A DNA stretch of 64,000 nucleotides, taken from assembly GCA_003635315.1 (NCBI GenBank), contig PYJD01000020.1, positions 1 to 64,000 on the forward strand, given 5' to 3'. The notes under the pieces are model-generated. The model was given only the letters and a program-made list of their open reading frames with translations, did not search any database and had not been told where the DNA came from. Positions 1 through 64,000 of the stretch are shown piece by piece. The translations under genes and the position numbers were made by a program. The DNA comes from Candidatus Poribacteria bacterium (GTDB lineage: Bacteria; Poribacteria; WGA-4E; WGA-3G). The number at the start of each line of letters is the position of its first letter. The first letter of the stretch is position 1.

Positions 1-512
1 CCCAAGACATCAGAACCGAAGTGTATCAAATGAACTTACGGCACCGAAAGTTCACAGAACTTCTAAATATCGTTTGTGTCCGCAAGACAAACTTGCTAAC
101 AAATCAGCAATCCTACATTTTATTGTTTAGTTCTGATTTAGCATTAGATGCAGAAAAAATGGTGGACTATTATTCCCTTCGTTTTCAAATCGAGTTCAAC
201 TTCCGGGATGCGAAACAATATTGGGGATTACAAGATTCTATGAATGTCAACAAAACACCTGTGAATAATGCAGCAAACCTATCAATGTTTATGGTATCGG
301 TCAGTGCGAAACTCAAAAATAGATTTGGTGATGAGAATACACCGTATAGTGTTTTAGATCTGAAATCACACTATAGAGGCTTGAAATATTTAGAGGAAAC
401 ATTAAAAATACTTCCGCAAAAACCTGAACCAATTGTTATTGATGAGATCACGCAACATCTAAGTTCAATCGGTGCTATTCATTACACGCAACCTGATTTA
501 AATCCAGGATAA
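1..512 (+). CDS. IS4-type DDE transposase, C-terminal part (cut by window edge)
   Basis: The frame is open to the first base of the window, so this is only the end of the gene. Counting from the GTG at 21, it shows the IS4-family signature Y(2)R(3)E(6)K: Tyr51, Arg54, Glu58 and Lys65 in the stretch YSLRFQIEFNFRDAK. The Glu would be the third acidic residue of the DDE catalytic triad, which cuts and joins the ends of an insertion sequence. The first two acidic residues lie outside the window. No frameshift is visible in the part present, so the element could be intact to the left. I could not define its right terminal inverted repeat in the bases after the stop. Confidence 0.85.
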   Translation, partial: QDIRTEVYQMNLRHRKFTELLNIVCVRKTNLLTNQQSYILLFSSDLALDAEKMVDYYSLRFQIEFNFRDAKQYWGLQDSMNVNKTPVNNAANLSMFMVSVSAKLKNRFGDENTPYSVLDLKSHYRGLKYLEETLKILPQKPEPIVIDEITQHLSSIGAIHYTQPDLNPG

Positions 513-3074: not shown

Positions 3075-4046
3075 TTAATCTATACTTACCTTCGTCTTTT
3101 CACGGGCTGACTCATAAGTAGCAAGGACAACTGCAACAGCGGCTTTACCACCCCTTGCATCTATCATAGGTGTTTTGTTATCTCGGATACAGTTTACGAA
3201 ATGTGTTAGTTCGCCAACTACGTGGCTTGGTCCAGAACGGTCCGGAACAATTTCCTGCCATTCACTGTCTCCTCGTTTTTTAAGGTATGCGAGATCAGCA
3301 CCCATATCAAGTCGGAGAGATCCTTCAGAACCATCAATAATTGTTTCATTTGTACCACGTGCACCCAGAAAACCACCCCAACGTAGGATACCCACAGTTC
3401 CAGTATCATAACGTATCAGAGAAACCGTATAGTCCTCCCAATCGTCATGTCCAGAAAAACTACCTACTTCAGCTGCCACAGTCAGAGGATTACCTCCATA
3501 CCAGTTTATCAAGTCCGATTTATGGATTCCGTTTTCTAACAGTCCACCTACAGTGCCATACCAACTATCAGGACGACCGCGTGGTGCATTGTAGGGGCCA
3601 GTATAGTCTGTCTCTATATATACAATATCACCTATTTCACCATCATCAACCAATTGTCTTCCAAGCTCATGAACAGGATAAAAGCGGAGTACTTGTCCAA
3701 CCATAGTGTGTATGCCGGTTTTATCTGCAGCCTCAATTATCTGGTCCGATTCCTCAAGTGTGAGAGTAAGTGGTTTTTCACAAAATGCATGAATACCAGC
3801 CTCTGCAGCGTCTATCATAACTTTTGTATGAGCAATAGGTGGGGTGGCAACAACAACACCATCAACCAGAGGAAATAGTTCATTGTAATCTTCAAAAGCC
3901 CGGATATTATGTTTTTCGGCAACGGCTTTTGCCGCGTCAAGTCGTAAATCAGCAACACCTACGAATTCACAATTTTCTACGTTTGGGAGTGAGTTACAAT
4001 GGGAATTCCCCATACCACCGACTCCAATAACACCTATTCGAATCAT
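3075..4046 (-). CDS. Gfo/Idh/MocA-family oxidoreductase
   Basis: NAD(P)-dependent sugar or polyol dehydrogenase of the glucose-fructose oxidoreductase/inositol dehydrogenase family. The N-terminal Rossmann fold has GVGGMG at residues 8-13, and the family EKP motif (the lysine contacts nicotinamide and substrate) is at 90-92. The C-terminal half is the usual beta-sheet substrate domain with GGLLENGIHKSDLINWY. The length of 323 is typical. The ribosome site AAAGGA lies eight bases before the ATG. The substrate cannot be read from the sequence. It stands alone, with the hairpin at 3004-3046 downstream. Confidence 0.9.
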   Translation of the reverse strand: MIRIGVIGVGGMGNSHCNSLPNVENCEFVGVADLRLDAAKAVAEKHNIRAFEDYNELFPLVDGVVVATPPIAHTKVMIDAAEAGIHAFCEKPLTLTLEESDQIIEAADKTGIHTMVGQVLRFYPVHELGRQLVDDGEIGDIVYIETDYTGPYNAPRGRPDSWYGTVGGLLENGIHKSDLINWYGGNPLTVAAEVGSFSGHDDWEDYTVSLIRYDTGTVGILRWGGFLGARGTNETIIDGSEGSLRLDMGADLAYLKKRGDSEWQEIVPDRSGPSHVVGELTHFVNCIRDNKTPMIDARGGKAAVAVVLATYESAREKTKVSID

Positions 4047-4230
4047 CTGTTTTTCCTTTAAAAATGGGTTAAGATGCGTTTGTATAGAGAATATACCTTA
4101 ATGTACCGTAACTGTCAATTGGTTATTTCCCACGATAAATCATTTCTTATACCAATTCTCAGAAATGAAGTTGTATTACAAGTTAATGTGTGATGTCATC
4201 TAAAACGGAAATCCAAGCTAAAGCTGATGA

Positions 4231-4856
4231 AAAAAGAGACATTTTTATTTAGAAATTGTAGAAGAATTCATAGTCGTAAATTTAACTTTTAATCCTAATA
4301 TACAGTCAACGAATAGGGTGCAAAAACAACCCTTTAATCCTAAATTCCCTGATGATAAATCGTGAAAATGTTGATTTTCTCCATGCGTCGAAAAAGTGAA
4401 AAAAGTTACACTTTTTCCTACATTTTGTAGGATTAAAATTGGTGTAAATTACCCCTCTAACCTCTGTCATAGACTAACTTTACTCCACTTTGAATTAACT
4501 TTTTAAGAATTTGCAAAATGTGTAATTTTGTGGTTTTGTTGTCGTTCCTGATTTTGACATTTTCAAACGGAGAATAATGTCGGTTTTTTGACGATAAAAA
4601 TATTTTGTATTTAGGATCATTTTTATACATAGTCATCATTTTTTTCTCCTATGAGGATGTCAAAAGCATCATCTATTATCAACTAAATACCTATAATAGA
4701 TTTTGTGGTTTTGTATTCTGTAATATGTATGTTAGATGTTAGGGTTCTATATTTCTTCATTTATTTTATTTTATTATATGCGTATGTTAGATGTTAGGGA
4801 TCTATATTTCTTCATTTTATTTTTATAATGTGAACTATTGAAATAGAGATAGTATT
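4231..4856 (-). mobile_element. Putative three-copy element with small basic ORF, copy A
   Basis: Read on the minus strand, this block matches copies B (19562-20066) and C (63100-63535). The order is AATACTATCTCTATTTCAAT at the left, TTCACATTATAAAAATAAAA, a small ORF (4639-4457), then GGGTAATTTACACCAA, a pair of hairpins, two or more TTAGGATTAAA repeats, and a TCTAAATAAAAA end. The left end touches the stop codon of the TVP38-like gene. A roughly 55-bp segment containing TATGTTAGATGTTAGGG is duplicated in tandem near 4726-4830. No known insertion-sequence family is recognised. Boundaries are approximate. Confidence 0.6.
4457..4639 (-). CDS. Small basic ORF of the three-copy element (copy A)
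   Basis: A 60-residue, lysine/arginine-rich product. It shares the pattern YKNDPKYK-x-SKNR-x-NVKI-x-DNK-x-TK-x-ILKKLIQS-x-VYDRG with the ORFs at 19711 and 63518. The frame is kept free of stops in all three copies although the DNA differs, which argues for real coding. I recognise no family. It could be a DNA-binding accessory protein of the element or a piece of a larger lost protein. Confidence 0.45.
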   Translation of the reverse strand: MMTMYKNDPKYKIFLSSKNRHYSPFENVKIRNDNKTTKLHILQILKKLIQSGVKLVYDRG

Positions 4857-5535
4857 ATACATTCAGTGTCCTACGACTTTTTAATATCCAAATGATAATT
4901 GAAATAGAAATTGCAATTCCAAAACCAAAAAGCAATAACCGAATATGAATAGAGATTTTGTCTCCCAGGAATGTATACACTGCAGTAGCAGGGAGTTGAC
5001 CTATACCAGTAGCTATCCAGAATCCAATAAAACGCATCCGCGTTAATCCCGCCACATAACTAACAACATCAAATGGAATGTAAGGGAGCAACCGTGCTAT
5101 GAGAATAGCCTGATTACCGTATTTGTTAAGGAATTCGTCAGTTTTATCAACTAAAGGTTGGCTAAGAATACGAGCAACATGTTTAGCACCAAGAAACCGT
5201 GCAATGTAAAAACAGATTGCTGCTCCAAGCATAGCACTGCTCCATGATAGCAACATTCCCCAACCAAATCCAAACAGTGCCCCATTTGCTACTGTAATGA
5301 AGAATGCCGGCAAAGGCACAATAGCAATTATACTTTGGAAAATCATAAGGAACGCTGAGATGAGCGGAGCAAATATCCCAAACTGCGATATGTAATCACG
5401 TGCAGAATCAATGCTTTTAAAGGCAGCAACGAGTTCTATGATGAAAGAACTAACTTCTTTATAGAATACTATCACACAAATAAATCCAACAAGGACGAGG
5501 AGAATAGAGACAAGTCGTATATTTCCTATATACAT
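4855..5535 (-). CDS. TVP38/TMEM64 (DedA-like, SNARE-associated) membrane protein
   Basis: Integral inner-membrane protein of 226 residues with about five or six hydrophobic segments. The family core lies at about residues 55-180: PLPAFFITVANGALFGFGWG, AAICFYIARFLG, then ARLLPYIPFDVVSYVAGLTRM. These match the VTT domain, whose members are thought to move or scramble lipids across membranes. The length is typical. It is not clearly in an operon. The repeat element A abuts its 3' end and supplies the bases right after the stop, so any native terminator there has been displaced. Confidence 0.85.
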   Translation of the reverse strand: MYIGNIRLVSILLVLVGFICVIVFYKEVSSFIIELVAAFKSIDSARDYISQFGIFAPLISAFLMIFQSIIAIVPLPAFFITVANGALFGFGWGMLLSWSSAMLGAAICFYIARFLGAKHVARILSQPLVDKTDEFLNKYGNQAILIARLLPYIPFDVVSYVAGLTRMRFIGFWIATGIGQLPATAVYTFLGDKISIHIRLLLFGFGIAISISIIIWILKSRRTLNV

Positions 5536-10305: not shown

Positions 10306-10419
10306 ATACCATTTCTATTGATTTTTGTTCCATTAGCAATTGTTATAAATGATGTGTTGTGTGGCACAAACTAAAAGTTTATGCTACAAAAGAGAGTCGT
10401 GATATATCAGAAATAGTAT
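10306..10419. repeat. MITE-like repeat, copy near-identical to the one at 53110
   Basis: Ends are ATACCATTTCT and AGAAATAGTAT. The interior GTTCCATTAGCAATTGTTAT and the core GCACAAACTAAAAGTTTATG are almost the same as at 53110-53223. The core forms a CACAAACT/AGTTTATG hairpin. About 114 bp, non-coding, with no transposase: the features of a miniature inverted-repeat element. Confidence 0.7.
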
Positions 10420-14598: not shown

Positions 14599-14764
<166 letters not shown>

Positions 14765-19408: not shown

Positions 19409-19437
19409 TTGACAGTTAAATATAAATATGTTATAAT
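19409..19437 (+). promoter_or_regulatory. Full-consensus sigma-70 promoter with no gene close behind
   Basis: TTGACA (19409-19414), 17 bp, TATAAT (19432-19437): an exact match to consensus and spacing. The nearest downstream frame of any interest is the small ORF of repeat element B at 19711, about 270 bp away. A small RNA starting near 19444 is an alternative. Confidence 0.7.
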
Positions 19438-19561: not shown

Positions 19562-20066
19562 AATACTATTTCTATTTGAATAGTTCACATTATAAAAATA
19601 AAATGAAGAAAATATTAATATCTAACAACTAACATGTATCTATTACAAAGCACAAAATTAAATAAAGATATTCAGATGATGTTTTTGACATATTCTTATG
19701 AGAATTAATCATGATTTTCTATAAAAACGATCCTAAATACAAAATATTATTAATGTCAAAAAACCGGCTTTATTACACGGTTGGAAATGTCAAAATCATA
19801 AAGGACAACAAAAACACAAAAACCCGTTTTTTAAAAATTCTTATAAAGCTAATTCAAAGTACTGTAAAGTCAGTCTATGACAGGGGTTACAGGGGTAATT
19901 TTCACCAATTTCAATGACACACAATGTGTCAAAAAGTGTAACTTTTTTCACTTTTTCGACGCAGAGATGAATGCAACATGAACACGATTTGCCCTATGAG
20001 AATTTAGGATTAAATGTCCGTTTTTGTACCATATTTATTGGCTGTATATTAGGATTAAATATGCGT
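19562..20066 (+). mobile_element. Putative three-copy element with small basic ORF, copy B
   Basis: Begins with AATACTATTTCTATTTGAAT, then TTCACATTATAAAAATAAAA as in copy A. It continues through the ORF at 19711-19917, GGGTAATTTTCACCAATTTC, the hairpin TGACACACAATGTGTCA, the hairpin AAAAGTG/CACTTTT, and two TTAGGATTAAA repeats. Copy B ends earlier than A and C, lacking their TCTAAATAAAAA end. Borders are approximate. Confidence 0.6.
19711..19917 (+). CDS. Small basic ORF of the three-copy element (copy B)
   Basis: 68 residues, longer than copies A and C because the shared TAG after VYDRG is TAC here and translation continues to a TGA eight codons on. Shares YKNDPKYKI, SKNR, NVKI, DNKNTK and LIQS with the other copies. 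Net strongly positive. No known family. A consensus promoter at 19409 points toward it. Confidence 0.45.
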   Translation: MIFYKNDPKYKILLMSKNRLYYTVGNVKIIKDNKNTKTRFLKILIKLIQSTVKSVYDRGYRGNFHQFQ

Positions 20067-20279
20067 TTTATACCTTTTATGTATGAGGAAACTCTGACTC
20101 CCAATTTGTAGTGTAATTCGTCACGATTCAAAGCTCAAAGAAACAGAAGATACCTATATCAGGATGTTTCTATTTTCAACAATTGAATACCTTTGATTTA
20201 CTGTATACTGGACATACCTTTTAAAGAAAAAATATGATATAATATTTATAAGTTGTAGCATTAATTGAAAGGAATAAAT

Positions 20280-21110
20280 ATGAGATTGGAAGGAAAAGTC
20301 GCAATTGTCGCAGGGGCAGCCTGGGGTGGAATTGGTGCTGCAACTGCATATAAATTTGCCAGTGAAGGTGCAAAAGTAGTTGTCAATACACGCCATCGAG
20401 AAACGAAACTGGCTGAAACGGTCGAACGAATTGAGGATGCTGGTGGTGAGGCTGTACCTATTATGGGGGATGTTGCTGATGAAAAGACTTGGGAGACGCT
20501 CGTAGATACCGCGCTATCCAATTATGGAAAAATCACTACACTTGTCCACAATGCTGCACACTCCTACACGAAAAAAGCTATTGAGTTCACCACTGAAGAG
20601 TGGAACGAAAGCCTTGGTGTAACCCTCGGTGGTCCTTGGCTTGGAGCAAAATATTGTATACCGGAAATGATAAAAAATGGCGGTGGGACATTAGTTTTCA
20701 TTTCTACAGTTAATGCTACAATTACGAACCCCGGTTTTGGTCTCTACGGTGCAGGTAAAGGCGGATTAAACGCCTTAACTCGGAGCATTGCCCTCGATTA
20801 TGGAAGAGATGGTATACGTGCGAATGCAATTGCGCCTGGACAAATTGTGGGTGAACGCGGAGAAGCTTCACTTGCAGCGGATACATTAGAGGATCAAGCA
20901 TCCAAAGATTGCTACCCCATAGGACGTTACGGAAAACCGGAAGACATAGCAAATGTTGCACTCTTTTTGGCTTCTGATGAAGCAGATTTTGTAACGGGTA
21001 TCGTACTCACTGCTGATGGTGGATTAACACTACAATCCCCAGAGGCACTTGTCAGACCATCCTTCCGTCTTAGATGGAGAGATGATATTCTGGTACCACA
21101 ACCCAAATAG
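20280..21110 (+). CDS. Short-chain dehydrogenase/reductase (SDR)
   Basis: 276 residues from the ATG at 20280, chosen because AAAGGA sits seven bases before it; an in-frame TTG at 20265 is less likely. The cofactor loop is GAAWGGIG (about 12-19), slightly different from the classic TGxxxGIG; VHNAAHS matches the NNAG strand; the catalytic set is Ser in FISTVNA and YGAGKGGL (Tyr-x3-Lys). It ends in VTGIVLTADGGLTL, the usual SDR close, plus a 22-residue tail. Substrate unknown. Confidence 0.85.
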   Translation: MRLEGKVAIVAGAAWGGIGAATAYKFASEGAKVVVNTRHRETKLAETVERIEDAGGEAVPIMGDVADEKTWETLVDTALSNYGKITTLVHNAAHSYTKKAIEFTTEEWNESLGVTLGGPWLGAKYCIPEMIKNGGGTLVFISTVNATITNPGFGLYGAGKGGLNALTRSIALDYGRDGIRANAIAPGQIVGERGEASLAADTLEDQASKDCYPIGRYGKPEDIANVALFLASDEADFVTGIVLTADGGLTLQSPEALVRPSFRLRWRDDILVPQPK

Positions 21111-25896: not shown

Positions 25897-26094
25897 GAAG
25901 ATCTATCTGCTCCTTCACTCTTAAAACACATCCAAGAACAAGTAAATGTACCGATTCAATTTAGATTGGAATCAATTCATGCTAAATTTTGATAGAATCT
26001 CAGGTGTCACTCGTTGCAATCAGACCTTTTTTCATGATATTCTATACTCAAGGATCTTTAGAAAAAACAGTAGAATAGATTACCAAACAGTGCG

Positions 26095-26150
26095 GAAACT
26101 GTCAGTTTATTCTACAAAGAAAGAGATATTTTCATTTAGAAATGGTATTC
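26095..26150 (+). repeat. Partial MITE-like repeat (right half)
   Basis: AAACTGTCAGTTTATTCTAC, a purine run AAAGAAAGAGA, and TTAGAAATGGTATT, the right half of the TACCATTTCT family. The left end is missing. It ends about 33 bp before the ATG of the second MNT-HEPN gene and artificially extends that open frame upstream. Confidence 0.6.
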
Positions 26151-26182
26151 TTATATTATGCCATCTCCGAAGGAATTGTGAT

Positions 26183-27121
26183 ATGCAACAGCCTACTGAC
26201 ATACGTCACAGCTCAAAAGAGCAATCAATAGAAGAATCAGAGCAGAGCCGTAAAAGCCTTGAAGAACGTTTGAAAAACCGAGTGGTTGATAAGGAATTGC
26301 TGCACCGCGCATGGCACACTGTCCACAAAATTGCAGCGATGCTTTATGAAGATTTTTGTGCGTCCAAGGTTGCTGTATTTGGTTCACTTGCCGAGGGGAC
26401 TTACTTCTCAAAATGGTCAGATATTGATATTGTCGTGTGGGGTATCCCTAATGAGATCTATCTCAAAGCTGTTTCTGAAATTACCGGTCTTAGTCCAGAA
26501 TTTAGAATCGAATTAGTGAAATTTGAAAACTGTAAAGGTGTCTTTCGTGAACGTCTTCAAAACCAGATTGTACCAATAAATAAAGATAAAGTAGGATACT
26601 ACCAAAACGATATAGAATTTGACCAAAATAGAAAGGTAATAGAGATATTGGACAATGATTTATTGATCCAACGAATTTCTGATGGATACGAAAAAGTAAA
26701 AGGCACTGTACAACTCATCAACCATGCATTACACAATATCAAAGATGCTCCTGACAGATACAGACGTAGTATAGAAATTGAAATAGCACGCTATCTTTAC
26801 GATTTCTATAAACAACTGGAAAATATTTTTGAACGAATAGCACGGGAATTTGACCAAGAGTTCCCAACTGGAGAAGAGTGGCATAAGATTCTCCTACAAC
26901 ACATGTGTGAATCTACTTCTACTCGCAATGCTGTTTTTTCTCAAGAAACATGCTCCGAATTACAAATTCTATTAGGGTTTCGACATGTATTCTTATATAT
27001 CTATGGAGATGAATTAGATTACAATGAGATGCTAATAAATGCCAATCGAGTAAACGAGGTATTTCCTAATATCTCCAATGAATTAGAAGCGTTTATCGAT
27101 TATTTAAAGAAAAATAAGTAA
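26183..27121 (+). CDS. MNT nucleotidyltransferase-HEPN (HepT-like) fusion protein 2
   Basis: 312 residues from the ATG at 26183 (AAGGA eight bases upstream). The open frame runs back to 25946, but that part is repeat DNA. Same layout as the protein at 23011 and aligned almost without gaps: VAVFGSLAEG, SDIDIVVWG, a weaker third acid (Glu in FRIELVKF), YKQLENIFERIAREF, EEWHKILL and FRHVFLYIYGDELD. At the HEPN catalytic site Arg267 and Tyr274 are kept but position 272 is Tyr, not His. A diverged paralogue in the same cluster, likely from duplication around the membrane protein gene. Confidence 0.75.
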   Translation: MQQPTDIRHSSKEQSIEESEQSRKSLEERLKNRVVDKELLHRAWHTVHKIAAMLYEDFCASKVAVFGSLAEGTYFSKWSDIDIVVWGIPNEIYLKAVSEITGLSPEFRIELVKFENCKGVFRERLQNQIVPINKDKVGYYQNDIEFDQNRKVIEILDNDLLIQRISDGYEKVKGTVQLINHALHNIKDAPDRYRRSIEIEIARYLYDFYKQLENIFERIAREFDQEFPTGEEWHKILLQHMCESTSTRNAVFSQETCSELQILLGFRHVFLYIYGDELDYNEMLINANRVNEVFPNISNELEAFIDYLKKNK

Positions 27122-53109: not shown

Positions 53110-53299
53110 ATACCATTTCTATTAATTTTTATTCCATTAGCAATTGCTATAAATGAAGTGTTGTTTGGCACAAACTAAAAGTTTATGTTACAAAAGAGAG
53201 TCGTGATATATCAGAAATGGTATTAGAAAGAAAGCGGAATGTAGCACAAACTAACAGTTTTGCTACAGGAGAGTGGCATTATATATCAGAAATGGTATG
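53110..53299. repeat. MITE-like repeat plus an adjacent partial second copy
   Basis: 53110-53223 is a full member (ATACCATTTCT ... AGAAATGGTAT) almost identical to the copy at 10306. Directly after it, 53224-53299 repeats the right two-thirds: GCACAAACTAACAGTTTTGC, then GAGAGTGGC and the same AGAAATGGTAT end. It lies upstream of the glycosyltransferase operon. Confidence 0.7.
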
Positions 53300-56652: not shown

Positions 56653-56736
56653 TAAACCATCAAGTATGCATTCCAAGTACACCTACAATACATTCTGTTA
56701 GACGAAATGTTAATACATGCTGTTTTTGTTATATTA

Positions 56737-56851
56737 TACCATTTCTATTTATGATTATCTCATAACCGGCTGTTAGAAATGAAATAGGGAATACACAAAC
56801 TGAAAGTTTGTGCTACAAAAAAGAGTATTATTCATTTAGAAATGGTATTAT
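56737..56851. repeat. MITE-like repeat inside the tandem duplication
   Basis: Ends TACCATTTCTATT and TTAGAAATGGTATT. The core CACAAACTGAAAGTTTGTG is a perfect 8-bp hairpin with a GAA loop, the best-conserved member in the window. A second copy without the left end is at 56925-57024. Confidence 0.75.
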
Positions 56852-57099
56852 TCCCGTCTATCTACTTTTCAACCGAATGTCACCCGTTGATGTCTGTAAC
56901 TTCAACAATTGTCCTCCACCATTATATGATTATCTCATGACCGGCTGTTAGAAATGAAACATGGAATACACAAACTGAAAGTTTGTGCTACTAAAAAGAG
57001 TATTATTCATTTAGAAATGGTATTATTCCCGACTATCTACTTTTCAAGCGAATGTCACCCGTTGATGTCTGTAACTTCAACAACTGTCCTCCACCATTA
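56750..57099. repeat. 175-bp tandem duplication spanning a MITE and a gene end
   Basis: 56750-56924 and 56925-57099 are equal in length and nearly identical, differing by scattered substitutions. Each unit holds the MITE interior and right end followed by the last 67 bases of the CDS at 57033. The gene uses the distal unit; the proximal unit carries a ghost of its 3' end, with the stop-codon context TCTACTTTTCAA conserved. Confidence 0.9.
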
Positions 57100-62049: not shown

Positions 62050-62997
62050 TTACCATTCAAATACTGTTCCGAGCAATCGCATCGGTTCATCCCGTAGCCA
62101 ACGATAGATCTGAGGAACATCATCAAGCGGAACTTTGTGTCGAATTAAGGGTGCGATTCTGATGGAACCTTGACGCAGGAATCGACATAAATTATCAAGA
62201 TCATCCCGTGTGAAATGACTACAATGCAGAATGCTTATCTCCTTAAATTGTCCTACGTTGAAGGTATAGTTCACATCAAATCGTCCTGCCACTAAGAGTA
62301 AACGACCGCGTGTTTTACATGCTTGAACCATCGGTGTGACCATATCAGGAACACCAGCAAAATCCATCACAGCATCATAGCCACCATCACCGATCTGCTT
62401 TTCCCAGCCATCATCACTTGTGTTAATTACCTGTTCGGCAATACCGAGTTCTCTTACCTTCTCCAATCGTGATTCCTCAATATCACAAACAGAAACACGC
62501 GCCCCCATCGCATAAGCAATCTGTGCTGCAAACATACCAATGCATCCTTGTCCTACGATCAGCACTCTTTCTCCAATACGAGGATCAACTCTCCTGCAGC
62601 AGTGCATGGCAACACCTGAAATACCGAAAAGAGCTGCATCAGAAGGTTCAATATCTTCAGGTAATTTCAGTAGCAATCCATTTTCTTGGATTTTAAACCG
62701 TTGGACATGGTCTACACTTGCATATATAAGGTCTCCAACTTGAAGTTGGGTGACATCCGGACCGGCTTCAATTACACGTCCAACGTTCTGATAACCCCCT
62801 CCACAGGGAAGATTTTCATCGGATGGTGCGTAATTTCCACCAATTAACTGATTTCGTTCAGTTCCGTTTGTGAGTCCGGTAAAGACTGCTTCACATAACA
62901 CTTCGTTTCCGACAGGAGATTCAGGTTCATTCCAATCTTCTACGACGATTTTCTCACGACGTTTATCAGGTAGGAGTGTAATGACAATTGCTTTCAC
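62050..62997 (-). CDS. Medium-chain (zinc-type alcohol dehydrogenase-like) oxidoreductase
   Basis: 315 residues from a GTG with GAGGAA eight bases upstream. An MDR fold: GroES-like N-terminal half (CGGGYQNVGRVIEAGPDVTQ, VGDLIYAS) and Rossmann half with VGQGCIGMFAAQIAYAMGA. The catalytic Cys/His of classical zinc ADHs is not clear near the start (FTGLTNGTERNQL sits there), so it may be of the zinc-free BchC/quinone-reductase-like kind. Paired with the Gfo/Idh/MocA gene downstream. Confidence 0.8.
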   Translation of the reverse strand: MKAIVITLLPDKRREKIVVEDWNEPESPVGNEVLCEAVFTGLTNGTERNQLIGGNYAPSDENLPCGGGYQNVGRVIEAGPDVTQLQVGDLIYASVDHVQRFKIQENGLLLKLPEDIEPSDAALFGISGVAMHCCRRVDPRIGERVLIVGQGCIGMFAAQIAYAMGARVSVCDIEESRLEKVRELGIAEQVINTSDDGWEKQIGDGGYDAVMDFAGVPDMVTPMVQACKTRGRLLLVAGRFDVNYTFNVGQFKEISILHCSHFTRDDLDNLCRFLRQGSIRIAPLIRHKVPLDDVPQIYRWLRDEPMRLLGTVFEW

Positions 62998-63099: not shown

Positions 63100-63535
63100 A
63101 AAATGAGATATTTTTATTTAGAAATGGTATTAGAAATAATAGTCGAAAATTTCACTTTTAATCCTAATATCCGGACAACCTAATAAGGTGCAAAAACAGC
63201 CCTTTAATCCTAAATTCCCTGAGGATAAATCGTGAAAATGTTGAATTTTTCAATTCGATGAAAAAGTGAAAAAAGTTACACTTTTTGACACATTGTGTGA
63301 CATTGAAATTGGTGTAAATTACCCCTCTAACCTCTGTCACAGACTGAGTTTACTCCACTTTGAATTAACTTTTTAAGAATTTCCAAAAAGTGTGATTTTG
63401 TGTTTTTGTTGTCCTTGCTGATTTTGACAATTTCAACCTGTCTATTATAGCTGATTTTTTGACATAAAGTCTTTTTATATTTAGGTTTGTATTTAGGATC
63501 GTTTTTATAGATATTCATCGTTTTTTCTCTTTTTA
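63100..63535 (-). mobile_element. Putative three-copy element with small basic ORF, copy C
   Basis: On the minus strand: small ORF (63518-63327), GGGTAATTTACACCAATTTC, the hairpin TGTCACACAATGTGTCA (same stem as copy B), the AAAAGTG/CACTTTT hairpin, TTAGGATTAAA repeats and the TTTCTAAATAAAAATA end shared with copy A. It lacks the AATACTATTTC left end of A and B, so it is left-truncated or joined to the tandem array at 63581. Confidence 0.6.
63327..63518 (-). CDS. Small basic ORF of the three-copy element (copy C)
   Basis: 63 residues from the ATG at 63518 (AAAAGAG upstream). Reads MNIYKNDPKYKPKYKK, then a diverged middle, then KDNKNTKSHFLEILKKLIQS and a VCDRG end with the stop in the same place as copy A. 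Very lysine-rich. No family recognised. Confidence 0.45.
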   Translation of the reverse strand: MNIYKNDPKYKPKYKKTLCQKISYNRQVEIVKISKDNKNTKSHFLEILKKLIQSGVNSVCDRG

Positions 63536-63580
63536 TATATTTCTCATTAAGGTTATGATTTTGAAGTAGGATCTCTGCAT

Positions 63581-63990
63581 GCACAATCTAACAGAATGTG
63601 CTACAAACACAATCACAATCTAACAGAATGTGCTACATACACGAGCACAATCTAAAAGAATGTGCTACATACACAATCACAATCTAACAGAATGTGCTAC
63701 AAACAAGAACACAATCTAACAGAATGTGCTACAAAACACCAGCACAATCTAACAGAATGTGCTACATACACAATCACAATCTAACAGAATGTGCTACATA
63801 CACAATCACAATCTAACAGAATGTGCTACAAACACCAGCACAATCTAATAGAATGTGCTACAAAACACACAATCTAATAGAATGTGCTACATACACCAGC
63901 ACAATCTAATAGAATGTCCTACAAAACACACAATCTAATAGAATGTGCTACATACACCAGCACAATCTAACAGAATGTGCTACAAACACA
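63581..63990. repeat. 13-unit tandem array of a 29-33-bp hairpin repeat
   Basis: The unit is ACAATCTAACAGAATGTGCT followed by ACAWACAC and a short AATC or CAGC joint. There are 13 copies; differences among them are mainly C or T in the loop (CTAACAG or CTAATAG) and the joint. Each unit can pair CACAATCT with AGAATGTG (one mismatch). The unit is alignable to the MITE core CACAAACTGAAAGTTTGTGC. There are no unique spacers and no cas genes. Confidence 0.9.
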
Positions 63991-64000
63991 ATTCAGCTAT

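Follow-up and report, generated by a model that had tools for sequence, protein, structure and literature searches.

A dispersed, probably MITE-type repeat of Candidatus Poribacteria with a near-constant orientation toward downstream genes

The window analysed here, a stretch of 64,000 nucleotides (contig C20 of a Candidatus Poribacteria genome of 4.33 Mb in 50 contigs, from a sponge-symbiont bacterium), contains three dispersed blocks of related sequence, termed copies A, B and C. Copy A, the complete one, spans 705 bp (4150..4854, minus strand) between the TIRs TACTATCTCT and AGAATTGGTA. The trinucleotide TTA (TAA on the element strand) adjoins it as a target-site duplication (TSD) on the right (4147..4149) and on the left (4855..4857), where it also serves the upstream VTT-domain gene as stop codon. 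Within copy A lie a mini-ORF of 60 aa (4457..4639, minus) and a MITE-like right part with TIRs of its own, TACAATTTCT and AGAATTGGTA (4150..4260, minus); downstream is a gene for a Gfo/Idh/MocA oxidoreductase (3075..4046, minus), preceded by the box pair TTGACA-17-TATATT (4118-4090). Copy B (19564..20063, plus) runs from the left TIR TACTATTTCT to the second of two TTAGGATTAAA motifs, its right border being approximate; the MITE right part was not seen in this copy. It bears a mini-ORF of 68 aa (19711..19917, plus) and precedes a short-chain dehydrogenase (SDR) gene (20265..21110, plus), while a sigma-70-type promoter-like site on its left, reading into it (19409..19437, plus), is a 12-of-12 match by consensus alone. 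Copy C (63101..63535, minus), with approximate borders and a right end cut inside the MITE part, has a mini-ORF at 63327..63584 (minus; 85 aa from GTG, 63 from MNIY) and lies before a zinc-binding dehydrogenase gene (62050..62997, minus). The left end of copy C adjoins a tandem array of a ~32-bp unit (CACAATCTAACAGAATGTGCTACA..; 63541-64000), and similar units also stand beside copies L068 and L076.

The three blocks are mutually homologous (D3, 300 nt at 85%; I1, 353 nt at 81%; I2, 257 nt at 84%), with the places and strands that a preliminary description had given them, and they bear out its order of an AT-rich left part, an ORF, a hairpin, two TTAGGATTAAA motifs and a TCTAAATAAAAA end. The borders proposed there for copy A (4231-4856) gave way to 4150-4854, flanked by TTA/TAA, on the evidence of these flanks and of an empty orthologous site; TCTAAATAAAAA, taken for a terminus, is the start of a MITE of ~111-115 bp that makes up the right part.

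The element had been described as present in three copies, and searches of its own genome and of relatives enlarged this number considerably. Comparison of the mini-ORF peptide with its own genome returned 98 matches, often more than one per copy; 67 loci retrieved with flanks, together with the three window copies and after exclusion of one locus that had no DNA match (L087), gave 69 alignable copies, as judged by DNA match and alignment. Over 293 core columns these copies have a mean identity of 90% to the majority sequence and 84% pairwise, and their right flanks share no similarity. Among 39 relatives searched at the DNA level, with the best 17 or fewer candidates scored per genome, the element core was found in two genomes, its own and that of another species of the same genus (G011), the latter with 18 matches to the core at 70-82%; the remaining matches in relatives, under the same scoring, were 27-37 nt long and confined to the MITE end of the query. 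A search with a peptide profile was likewise positive in two of 82 genomes of the class (75 matches in the own genome, 22 in G011), so that G011 holds about 18-22 copies. Since these genome searches scored part of the candidates (for DNA, at most 17 per genome), absences are relative to that set. A viral origin was rejected, as none of 118 stretches of viral contigs that fitted a pattern encoded a relative.

That the element has moved is documented most directly at copy A. The orthologous site in G011, identified by its neighbours (Gfo/Idh/MocA protein 96%, VTT protein 85% identical), is empty and carries a single TAA: it reads GAATGTATAAATAGTG, where the own genome has GAATGTATAA, the 705 bp, and TAAGAAATG. 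TAA likewise lies on both sides of L031 (788 bp, TACCATTTCA..AGAAATGGTA), which apart from copy A is the sole copy with both TIRs in good condition. Thus both copies whose two TIRs have at most two mismatches are flanked by TAA, though this trinucleotide is common in the genome; none of 21 looser TIR candidates from the same scan had TAA on both sides. Both TIRs were clear in two of the 69 copies in a scan that required the leader motif, the other 67 being ragged or missed by it. TIR-like sites at two or fewer mismatches number 202 in the own genome (control, 1). In the own genome copies also stand upstream of disA and of a cytochrome bd gene; the 320-330 nt preceding the orthologues of these two genes in G011 contain no element. 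No copy contains an ORF of at least 100 codons across the core; the element encodes no transposase and occurs in many dispersed copies, as a MITE does. The TIRs, the TAA flanks, the empty site and the 69 copies together sustain the earlier suggestion of a non-autonomous mobile element. No transposase was linked to the element ends, the sole one seen being a truncated DDE_Tnp_1-like fragment at window positions 21-512 (Pfam E 2.4e-4, below cut-off); an IS1-like reading of ORF 627-1079 was dropped, that ORF having no Pfam match.

The right part of the element opens with the TIR of an abundant MITE of ~115 bp; a listing of TIR pairs, which covered 18 retrieved stretches and the window, gave window copies that are mostly 113-115 bp long. 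Members of this family (ATACCATTTCT..AGAAATGGTAT; ~112-115 bp) lie at 750-864, 10306-10419, 14599-14762 (164 bp), 53110-53223 and 56736-56848. A 175-bp tandem duplication (96%) at 56750-57099 takes in the end of the MITE and extends to the 3' end of the 57033-58646 gene, and the N-terminal extension of ORF 25946-27121 (25946-26184) runs through a MITE end (KKEIFSFRNGI), the true start codon probably lying further downstream. With 30 of 45 matches examined, the MITE by itself attaches to gene 3' ends in a fixed orientation at 23 of 26 resolved loci, a set that includes tandem neighbours (L156/L157, L158/L168, L160/L163/L164).

For the mini-ORF it had been proposed that the reading frame is kept in all copies and that its product is probably under selection. 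The frame is indeed open in the three window copies; across the 69 this does not hold, single-base deletions being frequent (20 in the 3' half and 54 in the 5' half, some of the latter perhaps owing to ambiguous alignment) and the 38-codon 3' half being open in 29. In a neutral simulation, with the same numbers of substitutions scattered at random, 25.8 +/- 3.4 copies stayed open in this half, and 22% of runs reached a value as high. Conservation by codon position in this better-kept half is flat (0.919, 0.895, 0.901) and carries no codon-position signal, and pN/pS against the majority sequence over all 69 copies (0.82 in frame) resembles the values out of frame (0.98, 0.85) and in downstream non-coding parts (0.82-1.05). 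Comparison of own copies with a G011 copy having 64 open codons (L120) gave dN 0.38 and dS 0.46. Ratios near 1 together with frequent frameshifts in further copies, which the preliminary description had held to count against its own proposal, are therefore what prevails over all copies, the open-frame subsets being lower, and the 69 copies as a whole provide no convincing sign of coding selection. The alternative that the blocks are paralogues of a small-protein gene family, with a functional basic peptide of 60-77 aa, draws on the open frames that some copies of both species retain (an ORF of at least 60 aa at this position in 21 of 88 placements), on G011 copies that by eye suggest an open ancestor, on a dN/dS of 0.56 over 28 pairs of eight intact own copies, and on a pN/pS of 0.69 in frame versus 0.90 and 0.84 out of frame in 14 own copies with open frames; the sets yielding 0.56 and 0.69 were, however, preselected for open frames, and with the flat codon positions, the deletions and the neutral expectation against it we regard this alternative as very improbable. 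An ancestral coding phase, from which the G011 copies could derive, is possible. The YKNDPKYK pattern by which the peptide was recognised falls on GATCCTAAAT, a stretch of nucleotides whose conservation is 0.99, and the mini-protein looks to be mostly a by-product of conserved DNA motifs.

What is conserved in the element is a set of short nucleotide motifs, ATCCTAAA, TTAGGAT and GTGTAAC, and the hairpin, rather than the peptide. Conservation in ten-base blocks over the 69 copies ranges from 0.68 to 0.99, with blocks at 0.97-0.99 standing beside others at 0.68-0.80; the best-kept are GATCCTAAAT, TGTAACTTTT and ATATTAGGAT (0.99), AAGTCAGTCT (0.98) and TTAGAGGGGTAATTTACACC (0.97). This unevenness could in part reflect subfamily structure. 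For the hairpin, three own copies (L022, L071, L082) and eight of 19 G011 placements were dropped, and 34 of the remaining 77 were aligned (25 own, 9 from G011), for which RNAalifold predicted a single hairpin. Changes on both sides of a pair occur at three pairs, in 10, 13 and 17 of the 34 sequences, and amount to 40 cells versus 14.0 +/- 5.3 in shuffled alignments (0 of 500 as high); the numbers of such pairs (3 vs 2.6) and of pair types (9 vs 10.8) do not exceed the shuffles, which indicates few independent events. The changes are those of a few haplotypes common to both species. Of two further motifs, both nearly invariant, ATCCTAAAT is the reverse complement of ATTTAGGAT, which lies ~300 nt away at the opposite end; their pairing is kept in 92%, without compensatory change, and the motifs may therefore reflect protein sites. 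A helix with the second TTAGGAT was rejected (95.8% paired, equal to shuffled), and a hammerhead-like reading of CTGATGA..GAAA was dropped on inspection.

These features are those on which an RNA interpretation would rely, in which the element is a structured RNA gene or leader whose transcript, folded into the hairpin and perhaps a long-range ATCCTAAAT/ATTTAGGAT helix, has a role of its own or influences the downstream gene. The excess of both-side cells in the stem and the distant complementary motifs would fit it, as would the promoter-like site left of copy B and the fixed polarity toward the gene detailed below. The few independent events, the uncompensated long-range pairs and a fold of copy B reaching only z = -1.96 argue the other way, as does Rfam 15, which at gathering score matched two tRNAs in the window and nothing of the element. 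We therefore consider an RNA function unlikely. The earlier remark that no known protein domain is recognisable agrees with Pfam, in which the three peptides gave matches below the curated cut-offs only.

Scoring of the longest open frame on each side of every copy, with genes called as open frames on short flanks, revealed an unexpected regularity, a polarity toward the gene that is absent from the preliminary description. In 59 of 61 resolvable own copies the gene on the right starts away from the element (8 of the 69 had no callable downstream gene), while the gene on the left is codirectional in 30 of 42. G011 agrees at 14 of 15 resolvable loci counted by distinct locus, or at 11 of 12 if four loci with shared flanks, hence not independent (L108, L112, L114, L116), are merged. 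The genes concerned differ between the two species, none of 19 downstream proteins of G011 being orthologue-like to the 64 of the own genome (best 24-33%). They are also of many kinds: 31 of 58 own downstream proteins match Pfam at E <= 0.001 (one only below the cut-offs), among them a GTPase, DisA, PurD, Dus, a tRNA synthetase, a peroxiredoxin, an oxidase, sulfatases, dehydrogenases and others. This diversity led us to reject a regulon, allowing for a hidden theme among the 27 proteins that matched no family.

The sequence between element and gene bears on how this polarity arose. Promoter-like boxes stand there at copy A, copy C and the disA copy, so that a promoter role of the element is not required. 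Copy A ends 28 nt before its TTGACA box; at disA, 23 nt separate the final TTAGGATTAAA of the copy from another such box, and G011 has both boxes as well. The disA box, TTGACA in five of six genus relatives examined and TTGATA in the sixth, shows that the element is not in general the sole promoter of its gene. At a score of 6, boxes between element and gene number 20 in sense and 9 in antisense. The left modules of the 69 copies yield 16 promoters in sense, 3 in antisense and 7 in shuffled sequence at a score of at least 6.5 (10, 1 and 0 at 7 or above), so that predicted sense promoters exceed antisense ones only modestly. No terminator-like site was seen around copy A or B. TATTAGGATTAAA was discarded as a general promoter motif, with 67 occurrences in the own genome (control, 5), 12 in G011 (control, 2) and 0-2 in each of 16 other genomes of the genus.

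Boxes that lie so close to the element and that G011 also has, together with a polarity that recurs in two species at different genes, would fit a mechanism in which the machinery directs insertion, always in the same orientation, to the upstream side of promoters, polarity being set at that step and not by selection. Against it, the 20 copies with a score of 6 or more have a strong -35 box anywhere from 2 to 120 nt beyond the element end (rough distances, as local alignment overextends in some). Moreover, about 23 nt separate the end of the cytochrome bd copy from the start codon, and this gap contains no TTGACA; the 115-bp MITE, with like ends, favours the opposite end of genes. We think such targeting improbable on balance, though it is the main rival of the explanation preferred below. 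Some other copies, too, come to within tens of bases of a start codon; copies of this sort favour an effect on the gene, while the boxes retained at copy A and disA speak for mere tolerance.

Related families widen the question beyond the element itself. The own genome has 131 occurrences of the element's 3' signature, AAAAGTGTAACWTTTT (control, 0). In the class, the signature is present in 36 of 82 genomes, 30 of them among the 38 of genus g2, against a total of 2 control hits; a few of these occurrences are probably due to chance, such as one inside a gene (L246). A sister family, with 26 longer matches, has a codirectional downstream gene in 21 of 25 cases, some of its copies adjoining copies of the window element's family and thus not being independent, and a third, longer family with a TTGACA..TACAAT promoter does so in 6 of 8. 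A compact form of ~130 nt, beginning AAAATGTTACAC and ending GTGTAACATTTT, has its arm at 19 of the 28 signature loci listed for other genomes. Of 18 such loci examined, 17 could be resolved, and in 15 of these the left side is turned toward a gene start, opposite to the families of the own genome, which counsels caution against any one simple explanation of polarity. Loci L251-L274, of which at least L251-L259 come from genus g2, show a compact palindromic element, AAAATGTTACACCAGTGTAACATTTT..GTGTAACATTTT, near gene starts; two of them (L257, L260) resemble one place in two genomes. We entertain, tentatively, a broader proposal of a poribacterial superfamily addressed to gene starts: either the machinery or the cell would establish insertions on the 5' side of promoters, always oriented alike, and so seed the genome with interchangeable 5' cassettes (structured hairpin and TTAGGATTAAA sites).

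The explanation that we prefer, at a probability of about 0.66, is that the blocks are copies of a lineage-specific, non-autonomous element of MITE type, mobilised in trans, which persist almost only 5' of genes and read toward them. It is anchored in the copy number, the TIRs and TAA flanks of two complete copies, one clean empty site, the polarity, the uneven conservation and the want of a convincing coding signal, all of which are demonstrated. The unit would measure ~0.7-0.8 kb, with TIRs of ~10 bp (TACCATTTCT..AGAAATGGTA) and a TAA duplication, and would comprise in order an AT-rich leader, a fossil or fortuitous ORF, the hairpin with GTGTAAC beside it, a pair of TTAGGATTAAA motifs and the nested MITE. 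Because its ends are shared with the ~115-bp MITEs, a putative transposase serving these may act in trans on the element as well. On the simplest account, copies decay after transposition, and the insertions that are kept lie 5' of genes and share one orientation; since copies persist almost only there, we take them to be 5' cassettes that the genome tolerates or retains. Polarity may come from selection, and the element may have a regulatory effect on the gene.

A tempting reading as a conserved small protein is thereby replaced by a measurable one, the near-absolute orientation of a repeat to genes that differ between two species. Whether targeting or selection is the source of this polarity matters for understanding how gene control regions of uncultured symbionts can arise from repeats. 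The portions of the literature available to us contain no report of the repeat or of such gene-ward polarity.

Several known systems offer points of comparison. The IS1031 subgroup of the IS5 family generates a 3-bp duplication of the type TNA; the TWA-type duplication of the poribacterial element would fit this, although no transposase is linked to its ends. Mobile promoters, or horizontal regulatory transfer, involve non-coding cassettes dispersed upstream of unrelated genes; the poribacterial element is likewise dispersed upstream of unrelated genes, but the gene often keeps promoter-like boxes of its own, and any effect of the element on expression is putative. Bacterial MITEs such as Correia/NEMIS, RUP, ERIC and YPAL are described, in the part of the source available, as non-autonomous, mainly intergenic and multi-copy, with TIRs, hairpins and some putative promoters; some contain ORFs, for example one of 56 aa in a Yersinia repeat, and for ERIC, orientation is described as decisive for how it affects mRNA (PMC2229807). 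As far as that account extends, the poribacterial element resembles them in being non-autonomous and multi-copy and in its TIRs, hairpin and ORF, and differs in its larger size (705 and 788 bp), in containing a complete second MITE, in its presence in two poribacterial genomes only among 82 of the class, and in a polarity that holds at nearly every resolvable copy (59/61).
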